Assembly (NCBI GenBank): GCA_024276605.1
Contig: JAJRWX010000009.1
Coordinates: 149,839-213,838, forward strand
Source of the DNA: Planctomycetota bacterium
Lineage (GTDB): Bacteria; Planctomycetota; Phycisphaerae; UBA1845
Direction of reading: 5' to 3'
DNA length: 64,000 bases
Shown: positions 10,844 through 18,943 of the stretch, piece by piece
Position numbering within the stretch: the stretch's first letter is position 1
How the letters are laid out: every line of letters starts with the position of its first letter
Position numbers and translations under genes: made by a program
The notes under the pieces: model-generated
Databases searched by the model: none
Seen by the model: only the letters and a program-made list of their open reading frames with translations
Told to the model about the DNA's origin: nothing

Positions 10844-12667
10844 CTACACCGAAACCGGCGGACACTCAGGCACTAAACAAACGTCCTGAATACTTCGGCT
10901 ACAAAGGGCACCAACCGCTATGGTCGCCTTTGGTCGAGATGGGTCTGAGGGAGACCAGCATATCAAACGATCACGCAACTCCGTTGTCGCCACAATTACA
11001 TCACCAGCTACATCCACACGCCGAAGCGTCTGACCACCTGCTTCATAGCGGCAGACAAAACTATCACCCACCACCAGCGCATAGACAGCTAATGACGTAT
11101 CAGTAAACACCAATCGATCGACACTATGCGCAGAAGTAAGCCAAAGCGACTCCGCCGGTCGCTGCATACCACGGTGGATCGTCTGCGGTTTATCAGTCAC
11201 ACCGACCGGCCAATGCAATATATCGCCCTCAGCATTTCCGGCGTACAACCCTCGGCCACTCGGACAAATCGCAGTGATCGTAGATGTACTACCGGTAAAA
11301 ATCTCGCCCGGCTTGCCATCCACGGATCGGTTGGACCAGCTTACAATTTGTGCATCAACAGCGCAGTACATCATAGATGCCATACGAACGACACTACGCA
11401 CGGCTTTAGCTTGGCTGGTTAAGGATGAAAAAAGTTCAACGGCATCCGCCGCATCTTGCCGCGACCATGACCAAATCCCCAGTTCCGAATGACTAGCGAT
11501 GATACGATCGTCCGTACCGACAACAGCGTTGAAACCGCCACGTACCGCTGGAGCTTCAGGCACCAGCCACGTCGCATCCGGCTCGATGGCATCCACCGGC
11601 AAACGATATACCCCCGTTGCGGCACCAAGCAGAAGTGAAACACCGGAGTTATTATCCATCACTTGGATAGATCGGACCGCGCCGGCTTCACCGGCGATCG
11701 AAACGCGTCTTGGTGCAGTATCCGTCGCATGAGGATCAAAAAACAATATCTCCTGCCCGGCAGCTACCGCAATCCATCGCGTACGCGCTTCATGCGTTTG
11801 GGTGGCGAAAACCGCTTCATAAATATCACCACGCTGTTGTTGAGAAAATGCGCGAAGCAGTTCGGGCAACGCCGTATCCGGCGACTTCGCCGCGATGTGA
11901 TGGATGCGAGACAACGTTTCTGCTAACTGTTCGATCCTTGCCTCTTGTGCATCACGTCGCGCTTCACCTAGCTTTCGGTTGATTTCCTGCTGCGCCTGCA
12001 CCAGTGCACCGTGCTGACGCACCTGTTGCAGTTGACGATGCGACTGGGATTCCCACTTCACCTGCGGCTCACCCATCAATTGCAATCCCGCCAGAAAGCA
12101 CGGTTGCTTAAGCGCATCTTGTATACCTTGTAACACCAACGCTGTACTACGCCCCTCCACTAGCGCAGCCGCTTCTTGACCGGCTGCCACATCAATCAGT
12201 GACTGCTTCATCGCCATCTGTACATGTCGAACGATGTTGTCTACCTTGATGACCCGATGACTGCCTAGCAGCGTCTTCTGAAAAGATTCCAACTCACTAC
12301 GCTCGGGGATCACACCCACCTTGATGCTGACGGAAGCACGGCATTGGAAACCATCTTTTGAGGTTACTTCTTCGATAACACTCACGTCGAGCGGCGTCAC
12401 GCGCACGAACATCAGGCTATCTATATCCGTAGCCTCGATCTGACCACCAGGCCCAACCAACACAAGGTCTCCGGTTTCTCGCGTCAATAGCGCCGCCCAG
12501 GACGGTGGAAGATCAAACGAACGGCGTAAAAAACCAAAAACTTCTTCAGCGGCTACGCTAAGCGCAACATGATCTACCTGTTGCAGGAATTGTTGTGGGT
12601 CGAACTTGCCGGAGATCATCATAACTTCCATCGAGACGTTACCATTGAGTACGCTTATCCTATACAA
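10844..12667 (-). CDS. SPFH/band-7-like N-terminal region fused to C-terminal beta-propeller-like repeats
   Basis: 607 aa; N-term VIEEVTSKDGFQCRASVSIKVGVIPERSELESFQKTLLG plus coiled coil (RQHGALVQAQQEINRKLGEARRDAQ), then WD/YVTN-like blades; start may be an internal ATG near 12619. Confidence 0.5.
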   Translation of the reverse strand: MYRISVLNGNVSMEVMMISGKFDPQQFLQQVDHVALSVAAEEVFGFLRRSFDLPPSWAALLTRETGDLVLVGPGGQIEATDIDSLMFVRVTPLDVSVIEEVTSKDGFQCRASVSIKVGVIPERSELESFQKTLLGSHRVIKVDNIVRHVQMAMKQSLIDVAAGQEAAALVEGRSTALVLQGIQDALKQPCFLAGLQLMGEPQVKWESQSHRQLQQVRQHGALVQAQQEINRKLGEARRDAQEARIEQLAETLSRIHHIAAKSPDTALPELLRAFSQQQRGDIYEAVFATQTHEARTRWIAVAAGQEILFFDPHATDTAPRRVSIAGEAGAVRSIQVMDNNSGVSLLLGAATGVYRLPVDAIEPDATWLVPEAPAVRGGFNAVVGTDDRIIASHSELGIWSWSRQDAADAVELFSSLTSQAKAVRSVVRMASMMYCAVDAQIVSWSNRSVDGKPGEIFTGSTSTITAICPSGRGLYAGNAEGDILHWPVGVTDKPQTIHRGMQRPAESLWLTSAHSVDRLVFTDTSLAVYALVVGDSFVCRYEAGGQTLRRVDVAGDVIVATTELRDRLICWSPSDPSRPKATIAVGALCSRSIQDVCLVPECPPVSV

Positions 12668-12694: not shown

Positions 12695-13813
12695 TTACTT
12701 TCCTTCCTGAGCAAACGTATCATAGCGCACGAGGTCCGACGAATGCACGGAAGGCTTCGTCTGATCGATCACCGCGCTTAGGTCCGCGAGGTTAATAGGA
12801 CGCGGCTCTTTACCGCCGACAGCCTCCATGAACGGTCGTTGTGCCGCCTGTAGGGCGATGTTTTTAATGTCTGCACCACTATACCCCTCAAGCCGATCGC
12901 AAAGATCACCAAACTCAACATCGTCTGCCAACGGCCTATCACCGAGATAAATCTCAAGCAACCGAAATCGCGCCGGCGCGTCAGGCAAGCCCACGTAAAT
13001 TTTCGCATCCAAACGCCCAGGACGTAGCACCGCTTCATCCAGCATCCAGGGTTTATTGGTCGCACCAACAAAAAGTAGCGCGTGATCACCGCTACGATCG
13101 AATCCTTCCAACTCCTGCAGAATCTGCGGAACAACCCGCTGCATCACGGAAGACGAATCACTCTTTCGCTTAGGCACCAGCGCTTCAGCTTCATCCAAAA
13201 AAATGATCGATCTTGTCTGTGCTTTAGCGGCCTCAAATAGTTTACGAATATTCTGTTCCGCTTCACCAACCCATTTACTCAGCATCTGCGCCGCACTGAC
13301 CACGTAAAACGAAGCGTCGATTTCATGGGCTATCGCCCTGGCAATCATTGTTTTTCCCGTACCCGGCGGGCCGTAAAGCAACACACCGCCACCCGTGGCA
13401 ATGCCATAACGTTTAGCTAATTCAGGATGACCAAAGGGGTAGATCATTTTCACACGGATTTCGTCTTTGACATCCTCCAACCCGGCTATGTCATCGAAAC
13501 TGATGTCAGGCTTTTCACTCACCAACCAATCCGAAGCATCAGCGCCGGAGTCCTCCTCATTCTCCGATTGCTTTACCCGCCCCCTGCGCACCGCCCCCTG
13601 TTTCGCATCACAATCTTTAGCCAAGTCAATCAGCTCTGCCGCTAGCTCTTCATGTTGACGCTGCGTTTCAGGCGTCTTAGCCGACTCCGCCAGTTCAATC
13701 ATACATTCGGCGGCATCAACCAAATATGTCTTAGCCGCTAGAAAATCACCACTTTTATACGAGGTAATTCCCTTGCGTTTGAGTCGATCAAATGTTGCAA
13801 ATGAAACAGCCAT
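12695..13813 (-). CDS. Vps4-like AAA ATPase with MIT-like N-terminal domain
   Basis: FDRLKRKGITSYKSGDFLAAKTYLVDAAECMIELAESAKTPETQRQHEELAAELIDLAKDCD (MIT-like); GPPGTGKT, IIFLDEAEAL, LRPGRLD; C-term INLADLSAVIDQTKPSVHSSDLVRYDTFAQEGK resembles the Vps4 tail. Confidence 0.8.
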   Translation of the reverse strand: MAVSFATFDRLKRKGITSYKSGDFLAAKTYLVDAAECMIELAESAKTPETQRQHEELAAELIDLAKDCDAKQGAVRRGRVKQSENEEDSGADASDWLVSEKPDISFDDIAGLEDVKDEIRVKMIYPFGHPELAKRYGIATGGGVLLYGPPGTGKTMIARAIAHEIDASFYVVSAAQMLSKWVGEAEQNIRKLFEAAKAQTRSIIFLDEAEALVPKRKSDSSSVMQRVVPQILQELEGFDRSGDHALLFVGATNKPWMLDEAVLRPGRLDAKIYVGLPDAPARFRLLEIYLGDRPLADDVEFGDLCDRLEGYSGADIKNIALQAAQRPFMEAVGGKEPRPINLADLSAVIDQTKPSVHSSDLVRYDTFAQEGK

Positions 13814-13991
13814 AACCAATTTTTTCAATATTAACTAACAACCTAATGCTCCGTCACTACTGAGGTGACGGATTAGACCAAACCGAGCCGCGCCCGTCAG
13901 AAAGCGGCTTACTCGCTACAAGGTAAATTCGATGGCAAGCTCCCGCTCGATCGCAGCGCTGACCATGCATCAACTGATGCGTGATCGAAAT

Positions 13992-15503
13992 TTAGCGAGG
14001 CCTTCTTTGTCCTACTTTCGCCGGAGGAACCATAAAGACACAATCAGAAGCCGCGAAGCTATCTCCGGAAAAAGTACTACCTGTAAGCACTAATTCAATG
14101 GTTCGCCTCGGCTGCAAGGCATCAATCATAAACGCTGCACGGGCCTCAACCAATGAAAAAGGAATCACTAAGTCCAACATGCCGTCCGTCATCGCGCGGT
14201 GACAAACACATGGTTGAAAACCCGAAAAACTAATCACATCATCCTCTATAAACCGCGGCCCGCGTGATCCAACAAACGGCGCCAGCGACTGACCCACACC
14301 ATCCGCTCTGGTCAGCAACAGTGAAGACCTATCCACGTCTGCTGGTGAAAGATCAAATGTACCCGTTAATGCCACACGAAAGAAACCGCGCTTAAAACGA
14401 TGGAGGCGATTCGGACAACGACCCGGAAGAATATCGATTTCCACGGGCAGACCGACCGTAGGTAGGCAACCATTCACCTCATCACAAATATCGCCTGGAA
14501 AACAGGGATTAGGTCCATCCTGACAATCATTTACGACATCGCAAAATTCTTCCCCGTCGCAGAATAGACCGTTATCGCATATCGCATCGTCCGCTAGGTT
14601 CTGGCAATCATTGATGGGGTCGCAACTATCCAACGTACAGCCAACCGCATCATCGCACGCGGCGTCATCAGGTACATTCAGACAATCACTATCAACATCA
14701 CAGGTATCCACAGTACATCCAACGCCATCATCACACACCGTATCATCGGGAACATACGTGCAATCGTTTATCGCATCGCACACATCCGTCGTACAGTCAA
14801 TCAGGTCATCACATCGCGCATCGTTGGCCACCGACTGACATCCATTGGTCACATCACAAACATCATCCGTACACCCCACGCCGTCATCACACACCGTGTC
14901 ATCCGGTGTCACGCTACATTCACCACTCGTCAAATCGCAAACGTCCACCGTGCAACTAATGCCGTCGTCGCAATCCGCATCTTGTGTGCATCCCGGCGGC
15001 GTTCCGATGGCATACACATGCACGTCGTAGTTGAATGTTTCGCTATGGCTTCCATTGAAACCGGCATCACTGCCACCGGTAATACCAATGCCAAAGATCG
15101 CACCAGTAGGCGTGGTCCCTAGACGTACCACAGAATCGGTTGTTAGGCCGCCCCCGCCGCAATTAAGATCAATGGCGGAGTTGCCATCGTCGTTATTAGA
15201 ACCGCTCGACCCACTGGAAGAAGATGCTAATAGACGACTGCTCCCGCTACCCGACGTAATATCCACATCCACGATCACCTCATCGGTGTCGAAGGGGATC
15301 AATAGTTGGATCCAGTCCACATCTCCCGCCACCACCTCCCCGCTGGCCAGCCAAAAACATCCCTGGCCGGAATGAGTAGCTGCGGGGTCCGGTGAACCAT
15401 TTGGAAACGTGTCAGAAAAGTCCGGTGGTTCGATCAGTACGGGTTGGGCCATAGCCACACTAGCGCCTACGACAACCCACGTTAAGCAATGCAGTAGCTT
15501 CAT
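13992..15503 (-). CDS. Secreted Cys-rich repeat protein (CDDGxxCTxDxCD repeats)
   Basis: Signal peptide MKLLHCLTWVVVGASVAMAQ; repeated CDDGVGCTVDTCD units. Confidence 0.75.
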   Translation of the reverse strand: MKLLHCLTWVVVGASVAMAQPVLIEPPDFSDTFPNGSPDPAATHSGQGCFWLASGEVVAGDVDWIQLLIPFDTDEVIVDVDITSGSGSSRLLASSSSGSSGSNNDDGNSAIDLNCGGGGLTTDSVVRLGTTPTGAIFGIGITGGSDAGFNGSHSETFNYDVHVYAIGTPPGCTQDADCDDGISCTVDVCDLTSGECSVTPDDTVCDDGVGCTDDVCDVTNGCQSVANDARCDDLIDCTTDVCDAINDCTYVPDDTVCDDGVGCTVDTCDVDSDCLNVPDDAACDDAVGCTLDSCDPINDCQNLADDAICDNGLFCDGEEFCDVVNDCQDGPNPCFPGDICDEVNGCLPTVGLPVEIDILPGRCPNRLHRFKRGFFRVALTGTFDLSPADVDRSSLLLTRADGVGQSLAPFVGSRGPRFIEDDVISFSGFQPCVCHRAMTDGMLDLVIPFSLVEARAAFMIDALQPRRTIELVLTGSTFSGDSFAASDCVFMVPPAKVGQRRPR

Positions 15504-15548: not shown

Positions 15549-16160
15549 CTATTTTTGCTTCTCGCTGGACTCGTCCTTGAGCGCGTTAAGCTCCGCCCGA
15601 AGCCCGGCTAACTTGTCCAACTCCTTTTGATGCGCCGCCTCAGCTTCGGCATCGATCAATCGATCCACATCTTCATTGCTGATGACCTCATCCGACGCAC
15701 TCATCTCTGCATCCTGAGAGGCGATATCCTCAACACTATCCAGGAACATATTCATACGCTCTTCCATGGACTGCGACTGCACCATCGCTTTTTCCCAGTC
15801 CGTCTGCGTTTTGACCAGGTCCGTCTCGCCAAACAATTTGCCAATCTCCGCAGCCATCATGCCCATCGCCTGGGAGAAATCAGCCGAAGCCTCAGCTTGG
15901 CGCTTGATCACGAGCGCATTTTTCACCGTGAGTAATTGACGCTCTAGCATTTTCCGAATCGTCGCCGTCTTCTTTAGCGAATTGCGAATGAAATTGTACT
16001 GCTGCGTATCGCCGATTTTCCGCGCTTGCTGGGCGTTCTTGATGAACTCATCCTGAAACTTGCCCTGTTCGCGAATGGATTTCTCAATCCGCCGAATCCC
16101 CTGGCGAATCTTGATGTCGCGTTCGATACGTCTCTCTTGAGCTGATTTGAATAATCCCAT
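15549..16160 (-). CDS. ESCRT-III/Snf7-like coiled-coil protein with C-terminal MIM1-like motif
   Basis: 203 aa: basic N-terminal helices, FSQAMGMMAAEIGKLF, TDWEKAMVQSQSMEERMNMFLDSVEDI, acidic C-term ending LAGLRAELNALKD. Confidence 0.65.
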   Translation of the reverse strand: MGLFKSAQERRIERDIKIRQGIRRIEKSIREQGKFQDEFIKNAQQARKIGDTQQYNFIRNSLKKTATIRKMLERQLLTVKNALVIKRQAEASADFSQAMGMMAAEIGKLFGETDLVKTQTDWEKAMVQSQSMEERMNMFLDSVEDIASQDAEMSASDEVISNEDVDRLIDAEAEAAHQKELDKLAGLRAELNALKDESSEKQK

Positions 16161-16236: not shown

Positions 16237-16482
16237 CTAATAATATTCCCGTTCGGGAATCAGCACCCACAGAAGTATGTAAATCAAGGTTCCGGGAAAG
16301 CCTGCTGAGAGAACAGACAGTAGCACGTAAATAATGCGTACCACAGTCGGGTCCAAATCGAAATACTCACCAATCCCGCCACAGATACCCGCCATCCAAC
16401 GGTCGTGAACACTTCGTCGCAATCGCCTTGAATAGCCGCTCAAAATAATCGGTTCCTCTCTGGGCCTATCGAGCCAAACCAT
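16237..16482 (-). CDS. PspC-domain protein
   Basis: RRSVHDRWMAGICGGIGEYFDLDPTVVRIIYVLLSVLSAGFPGTLIYILLWVLIPE; start ATG at 16482 avoids overlap with upstream gene. Confidence 0.85.
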   Translation of the reverse strand: MVWLDRPREEPIILSGYSRRLRRSVHDRWMAGICGGIGEYFDLDPTVVRIIYVLLSVLSAGFPGTLIYILLWVLIPEREYY

Positions 16483-16489
16483 GCCATAC

Positions 16490-17143
16490 TCACGCTTCCG
16501 GTGCCGCTTGGCGATCACGTACACTGCGATCCGCTTCTTCAAATGCTTCCGCGGTATCGGTGATCGCGCCGGTATCCATCTTGTCCCACACGTTCATCAC
16601 CGTCTGCCCTGCATTATTCAAACCCGCAGCCCCTTCATCAACTTCTGCGCCCAACGACAGAATATCATCGAGACGCTCCTGATAGACCTCCGACTTGATC
16701 GAATCGGCTTCGATAAGCTTACCCAACCGAAGCAGATCACCCGGTGTAATCAGCCCCAACTTTCCAGTTTGCCCCATACGATCCGCATTTTCTCGCAGCA
16801 TACGAAGCCGGGAAACGGTCATCATCTCTTTACTGCGGATGTTGAGTTGTCGCGCGAGCATGAGTTGCTCAGAAGTCCTCAATTCAAATTCCTGGGCTAA
16901 CATACGTCGCACTTCCGGCGTCTTTTCCTGCGCGCCTCTATCGAAAATCTCCTGCTTTTCCTTAGCTAACTTCGTCACTTTAGCTAGCAATCTGCCGCGA
17001 TCCTTTTCCAACAGTAACTCCTGACGACGAAGTTCCGAACGTGTCATTTGCGACAACGTTTTCTTGCGCTTCGTTAGCCAATCAAACAACGATTGCGGTA
17101 CGCTGTTTTTACCGGAAAAAAGTTTGGCGAAAATACCGCTCAT
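16490..17143 (-). CDS. ESCRT-III/Snf7- or PspA-like coiled-coil protein
   Basis: MSGIFAKLFSGKNSVPQSLFDWLTKRKKTLSQMTRSELRRQELLLEKDRGRLLAKVTKLAKEKQEI, charged amphipathic helices; AGGGAAACG before ATG 17143. Confidence 0.6.
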   Translation of the reverse strand: MSGIFAKLFSGKNSVPQSLFDWLTKRKKTLSQMTRSELRRQELLLEKDRGRLLAKVTKLAKEKQEIFDRGAQEKTPEVRRMLAQEFELRTSEQLMLARQLNIRSKEMMTVSRLRMLRENADRMGQTGKLGLITPGDLLRLGKLIEADSIKSEVYQERLDDILSLGAEVDEGAAGLNNAGQTVMNVWDKMDTGAITDTAEAFEEADRSVRDRQAAPEA

Positions 17144-18670: not shown

Positions 18671-18943
18671 CTACATTAACCGTGCGCCGCATTGGCTACA
18701 AAAACGTGCCGGGCGATTTTCAACTTTTCGACATCCTTCACGCGGACAGATAAGCCCGGCTGATGCCCCATGGCCTATCGGCGTTCGCCGGCCCGATCCT
18801 CCCAACATGCGACCCAGGCCGCTGAAAACAAAGCCTACTACGCGAGCTAAGATATACAAAATACTAAAAAAGAACGCCGCCAATCCAAGGATAAGCACGA
18901 CAATAAAAATAAAGGGCTCGCCGGGCATAATGCCAGTCCTCAA
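18671..18943 (-). CDS. Small membrane protein with C-terminal zinc ribbon
   Basis: N-terminal TM; ICPREGCRKVENRPARFCSQCGARLM. Confidence 0.65.
   Translation of the reverse strand: MRTGIMPGEPFIFIVVLILGLAAFFFSILYILARVVGFVFSGLGRMLGGSGRRTPIGHGASAGLICPREGCRKVENRPARFCSQCGARLM

Follow-up and report, generated by a model that had tools for sequence, protein, structure and literature searches.

The DNA analyzed in this work (the window) is a 64,000-nucleotide contig stretch from a 4.5-Mb genome, and on its minus strand lies a conserved gene cluster that encodes, among others, a 203-residue Snf7/CHMP-like protein with an ATG start (positions 15549-16160), here designated SNF, and a Vps4/CdvC-like single-AAA ATPase (12695-13813, the frame being also open from a TTG at 13828). 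In transcription order, the cluster is constituted by a small predicted membrane protein (20045-20452), a Ser/Thr protein kinase with a double zinc ribbon (18944-20038; Pfam Pkinase 1.5e-39, DZR 1.8e-9), a small membrane or zinc-ribbon-like protein (18671-18943), the proteins P487 (17169-18632) and P254 (16490-17143), a PspC-domain membrane protein (16237-16542; Pfam PspC 1e-23), SNF, a Cys-rich repeat protein in some loci (13992-15503), the ATPase, and a 607-aa protein (10844-12667), all on the minus strand. The small membrane protein and the kinase are both conserved in the cluster, the latter suggesting that the system is under phosphorylation control, and the PspC-domain gene is conserved in most loci. 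The 607-aa protein, conserved 3' of the ATPase gene, matched no Pfam family and displays a coiled coil and, as judged by eye, repeats suggesting a beta-propeller. The Cys-rich protein is probably secreted, carries CDDGVGCT-type repeats, and is found between SNF and the ATPase in this lineage only, namely in the window and two near relatives (loci L001 and L002).

Two further proteins are conserved partners of SNF. P254 is a helical protein whose gene adjoins that of SNF in nearly all loci (its reading frame is open to 17254, and the orthologues start near 17143), and a homologue occurs in deep families as well. P487 consists of an N-terminal domain with a possible winged helix and a C-terminal coiled coil, an arrangement that recalls CHMP7; family searches with it gave only weak HTH_40 and MarR_2 matches, each from a single member. 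In the same search of PDB sequences that was performed with SNF, the P254 and P487 profiles found no ESCRT-III chain, and profile tests of an ESCRT-III identity for P254 were negative. We do not claim three ESCRT-III paralogues in the cluster, as profile comparisons of SNF with P254 and P487 gave no support.

The SNF sequence of the window, used alone, had no significant family match, Pfam Snf7 and NCBIfam included, and a genome profile search of the window genome detected no match to Pfam Snf7 or to PspA_IM30. We retrieved 29 orthologues, 68-94% identical, from genomes of Planctomycetota/Phycisphaerae; further, among 29 diverse orthologues from across the phylum, 16 matched Pfam Snf7 (best E 2.7e-6), and any other Pfam family was found in at most 2 of the 29. 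When 201 Planctomycetota genomes were searched blindly with the Pfam Snf7 model, 18 genes were obtained, 16 of them being genes also found with the SNF family profile; 2 matches, in 2 genomes, exceeded the curated cut-off, and among the control genomes the sole match to this model came from Sulfolobus and fell below the cut-off. According to the family profile, SNF is present in 40 of 150 genomes of the class and in 57 of 395 genomes of a draw from the phylum, nearly all of these latter positives lying outside the class of the window. A profile of the diverse SNF family retrieved five matches from all PDB sequences, all of them ESCRT-III proteins (Snf7, CHMP3 and CHMP2A; E 0.016-0.3), the search having given no match with the close family only and a response once the family was widened.

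Structural prediction is consistent with these profile results. The AlphaFold model of SNF, of modest confidence (pLDDT 71, pTM 0.52), is predicted to contain helices at residues 7-49, 52-110, 114-153 and 162-202, of which the first three correspond to the ESCRT-III core (residues 7-153; 15702-16142) and would build the long alpha1-alpha2 hairpin together with the helices that come after it. The top Foldseek matches of this model were CHMP2A (probability 1.00), CdvB (0.92), CHMP1B (0.87) and Snf7 (0.85), with Loki CHMP4-7 and Vipp1 also among the best, every E-value being above 0.001. The net charge is +12 over residues 1-100 versus -15 over residues 101-203, which agrees with the basic N-half and acidic C-half described in an earlier, sequence-only reading of this DNA; the Snf7-like identity proposed there was likewise supported, by the searches with the orthologues, the PDB search and the fold comparison. 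Taken together, profiles and fold comparison make it nearly certain that SNF belongs to the ESCRT-III superfamily.

The ATPase exceeded the Pfam cut-offs for AAA (1.9e-40) and for Vps4_C (26.4 bits, cut-off 21.3), a domain possibly not exclusive to Vps4. Its best NCBIfam model was CdvC (234.5 bits, versus 226.2 for CDC48), with a score under the CdvC model's own cut-off of 650, and its closest single-domain fold by rmsd was Vps4 of M. sedula (2.4 A, TM 0.88, 38% identity); p97/Cdc48 ranked first in whole-protein profile and fold searches, the p97 chains doing so by fold E-value. The N-terminal domain (residues 4-76, numbered from Ala1 after the initial Met; 13583-13801) is predicted by AlphaFold to form three helices, at residues 4-20, 23-42 and 47-76. 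Pfam MIT did not match it, TPR models scoring best, weakly; in a search of 61 genomes, the Pfam MIT matches obtained looked like TPRs and were discarded. A bridge to MIT domains is provided by a sister enzyme: in nine deep loci of the phylum, another AAA ATPase gene lies just 5' of SNF, encoding an AAA domain with the SRFEKK motif and other Vps4-like features. The window genome lacks this sister ATPase. Alignment of the sister profile to VPS4B starts at residue 3 and covers the MIT region; its N-domain profile is collinear with the VPS4A MIT domain, weakly (E 0.13-0.16); and the sister profile further matched that of N-domains of the type seen in the window (hhalign 94.5%, E 7.5e-8). The sequence-only reading had spoken of a MIT-AAA gene, and the three-helix domain and the profile bridge are compatible with this, although Pfam MIT recognizes nothing there; we regard a MIT identity as probable and name the domain MIT-like rather than MIT.

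That reading had also placed SNF just upstream of the ATPase gene, which is correct as to the order and holds as direct adjacency in several orthologous loci, including L004, L005, L011 and L020, although in the window the 1.5-kb Cys-rich gene intervenes. In 17 of the 29 close relatives, SNF and the ATPase lie at one locus, and in many deep lineages they are neighbors. Among 150 genomes of the class, both SNF and the ATPase N-domain were found in 38, SNF only in 2, the ATPase only in 2, and neither in 108 (Fisher 1e-30, relatedness not being corrected for); that is, both genes occur in 38 of the 42 genomes having either, even when unlinked. For instance, in lineage f10 the two genes are unlinked yet co-occur, and in one genome they lie megabases apart on one contig. 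The conservation of the operon and the genome co-occurrence support a functional link between SNF and the AAA ATPase, and we consider it likely that the latter is the Vps4-like partner of SNF.

The C-terminal predicted helix of SNF (residues 162-202) contains the motif LAGLRAELNALK at residues 184-195 (15576-15611), the segment LRAELNALK corresponding to residues 187-195 and being followed by 8 residues. The skeleton L..E[LI]..[LV]K is kept in all 30 close sequences, and so is the amphipathic helix with the spacing L...L..L[KR]; the sequence-only reading had named a lack of conservation in orthologues as a refutation of the motif, and no such lack was seen in this close set. When the 42-residue SNF tail was shuffled, the spacing arose in 1.0% of cases, and in related loci it is present in the tails of 1 of 464 other reading frames of at least 200 aa; the motif therefore exceeds chance expectation. 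The canonical MIM1 consensus is (D/E)xxLxxRLxxL(K/R) (PMC5141497). None of the 30 close SNF sequences meets it in full, two of the six consensus positions being mismatched, with L184 at the first acidic position and E190 in place of the Arg. Consequently, the label MIM1-like is applicable only in a loose sense, one that covers the hydrophobic skeleton and the terminal Lys and leaves aside the two failing positions. Both f10 and f13 have lost this spacing, as have the deeper lineages; in deeper Planctomycetota an amphipathic C-terminal helix persists with a different spacing, e.g., LDxEIxxGLxxIxxEL. Since 28 of 30 orthologues have no proline in the 42-residue C-terminal tail, docking through MIM2, a proline-rich extended motif, was rejected.

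In MIM1-MIT complexes, the Arg of the motif contacts acidic residues of alpha3, and the terminal Arg/Lys contacts an acidic residue of alpha2 (PMC5141497). We compared tail and N-domain charges in the 27 genomes with both SNF and ATPase sequences. In our provisional mapping of the ATPase onto VPS4A, we take K/R65 to correspond to VPS4 Glu68, D/E35 to the alpha2 acid, and the acidic D/E62 to VPS4 Asp65. E190 of SNF and K/R65 of the ATPase were each present in 27 of 27 genomes. K195 of SNF was paired with D/E35 of the ATPase in 23 of 23 genomes, and SNF proteins with another residue at this position were paired with K/R35 in 4 of 4, all four belonging to one clade (f10 and f13) in which SNF has lost K195 and gained an acid at 194, and in which the exposed residue 59 of the ATPase has switched from acidic to basic. 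A salt-bridged interface would be expected to leave such a pattern, but the pattern stems from the split of a single clade, i.e., from about one evolutionary event. The C-terminal helix is somewhat favored as the docking element of SNF; that it would occupy the alpha2-alpha3 groove, and do so with its polarity reversed, is a more tentative proposal and less likely than not, and D/E62 would repel E190, contrary to the pairing proposed.

The alternative that survives best retains SNF as an ESCRT-III protein and the ATPase as its partner, and assigns the helix a different task, either capping the filament in an autoinhibitory manner, as alpha5/alpha6 do in CHMPs, or binding P254, P487 or PspC, with the ATPase engaging another segment of SNF. 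The tail helix is indeed conserved, with other spacing, where the ATPase set differs (sister only, or both), and the linkage of SNF to P254 and P487 is no looser than that to the ATPase; against this, the charge changes of the tail parallel those in the ATPase N-domain where the groove is predicted to lie, and we regard this alternative as rather unlikely. It is less probable still that SNF is a PspA-type phage-shock protein acting in envelope stress with PspC, the ATPase having a side role. The PspC-domain gene immediately upstream of SNF would fit such a function, as would the membership of PspA in the ESCRT-III superfamily (PMC8281802) and the distribution of PspA_IM30, which is missing from the window genome and found in just 3 of 40 SNF-bearing genomes of the class (p 0.13), a rarity of co-residence that is not significant and makes the replacement of PspA by SNF a trend only. 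Conversely, Pfam PspA_IM30 never matched the SNF family and Snf7 did, the comparison of the SNF profile with that of planctomycete PspA was negligible (5%), and only Snf7/CHMP chains responded to the SNF profile among solved structures. Finally, a generic coiled coil resembling ESCRT-III by convergent charge and heptad pattern, which the lack of a significant family match for the window SNF alone and the Foldseek E-values would allow, is very improbable, given that the blind Snf7 search of 201 genomes singled out the SNF family, that the other helical proteins of the cluster did not score, and that it is specifically ESCRT-III structures that rank highest in the fold comparison.

On balance, we favor the reading in which SNF and the ATPase constitute a bacterial ESCRT-III/Vps4 pair in which a MIM1-like helix, its polarity partly reversed, would mediate docking. 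Family membership of SNF, motif conservation, operon and genome co-occurrence, and charge covariation were computed here; because of the homology to ESCRT-III/Vps4, we infer by analogy the polymerization of SNF into a membrane filament, its membrane binding, the binding of the motif that would recruit the ATPase to the tail, and ATP-driven remodeling. In the proposed mechanism, SNF would polymerize at the cytoplasmic membrane, on its inner face, via a basic alpha1-alpha2 hairpin, and the ATPase would remodel or disassemble the polymer, driven by ATP. The face L184/L187/L191/L194 of the tail helix may fit into the MIT-like N-domain at its alpha2-alpha3 groove, with the central salt bridge reversed, SNF E190 facing ATPase K/R65 where MIM1 has an Arg and VPS4 has Glu68, and the terminal one kept, between SNF K195 and ATPase D/E35. 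PspC would probably be the membrane anchor, and the kinase would probably serve regulation.

Several of these traits are shared with known systems. With the eukaryotic Vps2/Did2 class (CHMP2A, CHMP3 and CHMP1) and VPS4, SNF has in common the Snf7-type profile and fold, the basic N-half and acidic C-half, the tail amphipathic helix with L...L..L[KR], and an AAA ATPase with an MIT-like N-domain; in contrast to eukaryotic MIM1, SNF is bacterial and has Glu for the central Arg in 30 of 30 sequences and Leu at the first acidic position, and the planctomycete ATPase, by sequence inspection, seems to lack VPS4's long insertion between the lid helices. Archaeal CdvB/CdvC likewise comprise a filament gene and an MIT-type ATPase gene, CdvC being the best NCBIfam model and M. 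sedula Vps4 the closest fold by rmsd; CdvB, however, docks through a proline-rich MIM2 (PMC5840170), unlike the SNF tail, proline-free in 28 of 30 orthologues. Bacterial PspA/Vipp1, known members of the ESCRT-III superfamily (PMC8281802), also resemble SNF in its having a PspC gene next door, and differ from it in that SNF has no PspA_IM30 match, displays no profile similarity to them, and is accompanied by a dedicated Vps4-like ATPase. Neighborhoods joining Snf7-clade or PspA genes to AAA+ genes in bacteria, and bacterial Vps4-like ATPases, have been described in a survey of PSP systems (PMC11237479); for the Vps4-like ATPases, that survey reported an unrelated TPR/6TM gene in the place of snf7, whereas here both genes are found together across a phylum.

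Planctomycetes are known for elaborate inner membranes. FtsZ was found over cut-off in 0 of 150 genomes of the class, with or without the SNF system, and a few FtsZ/tubulin-like proteins were observed in f18 and f22. As the whole class lacks FtsZ, a link between SNF and FtsZ loss was rejected, and a role in division does not follow from this absence. We found no published description of the planctomycete SNF/ATPase system, preprints and most subscription journals being outside our search, and a 2024 survey reported vps4 together with ESCRT-III solely in archaea and eukaryotes (PMC10936438). That Planctomycetota possess a complete ESCRT-III/Vps4 machine, with a filament, an MIT-type ATPase (two ATPases in deeper lineages) and an interface of reversed polarity, old and spread over many families, is a proposition to which we give slightly less than even credence. 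If true, the combination of vps4 and ESCRT-III in one system extends beyond archaea and eukaryotes, and a phylum-wide bacterial pair of filament and ATPase would be relevant to how ESCRT originated. Furthermore, SNF and its ATPase would represent a divergent docking interface and are a candidate system for planctomycete membrane remodeling.
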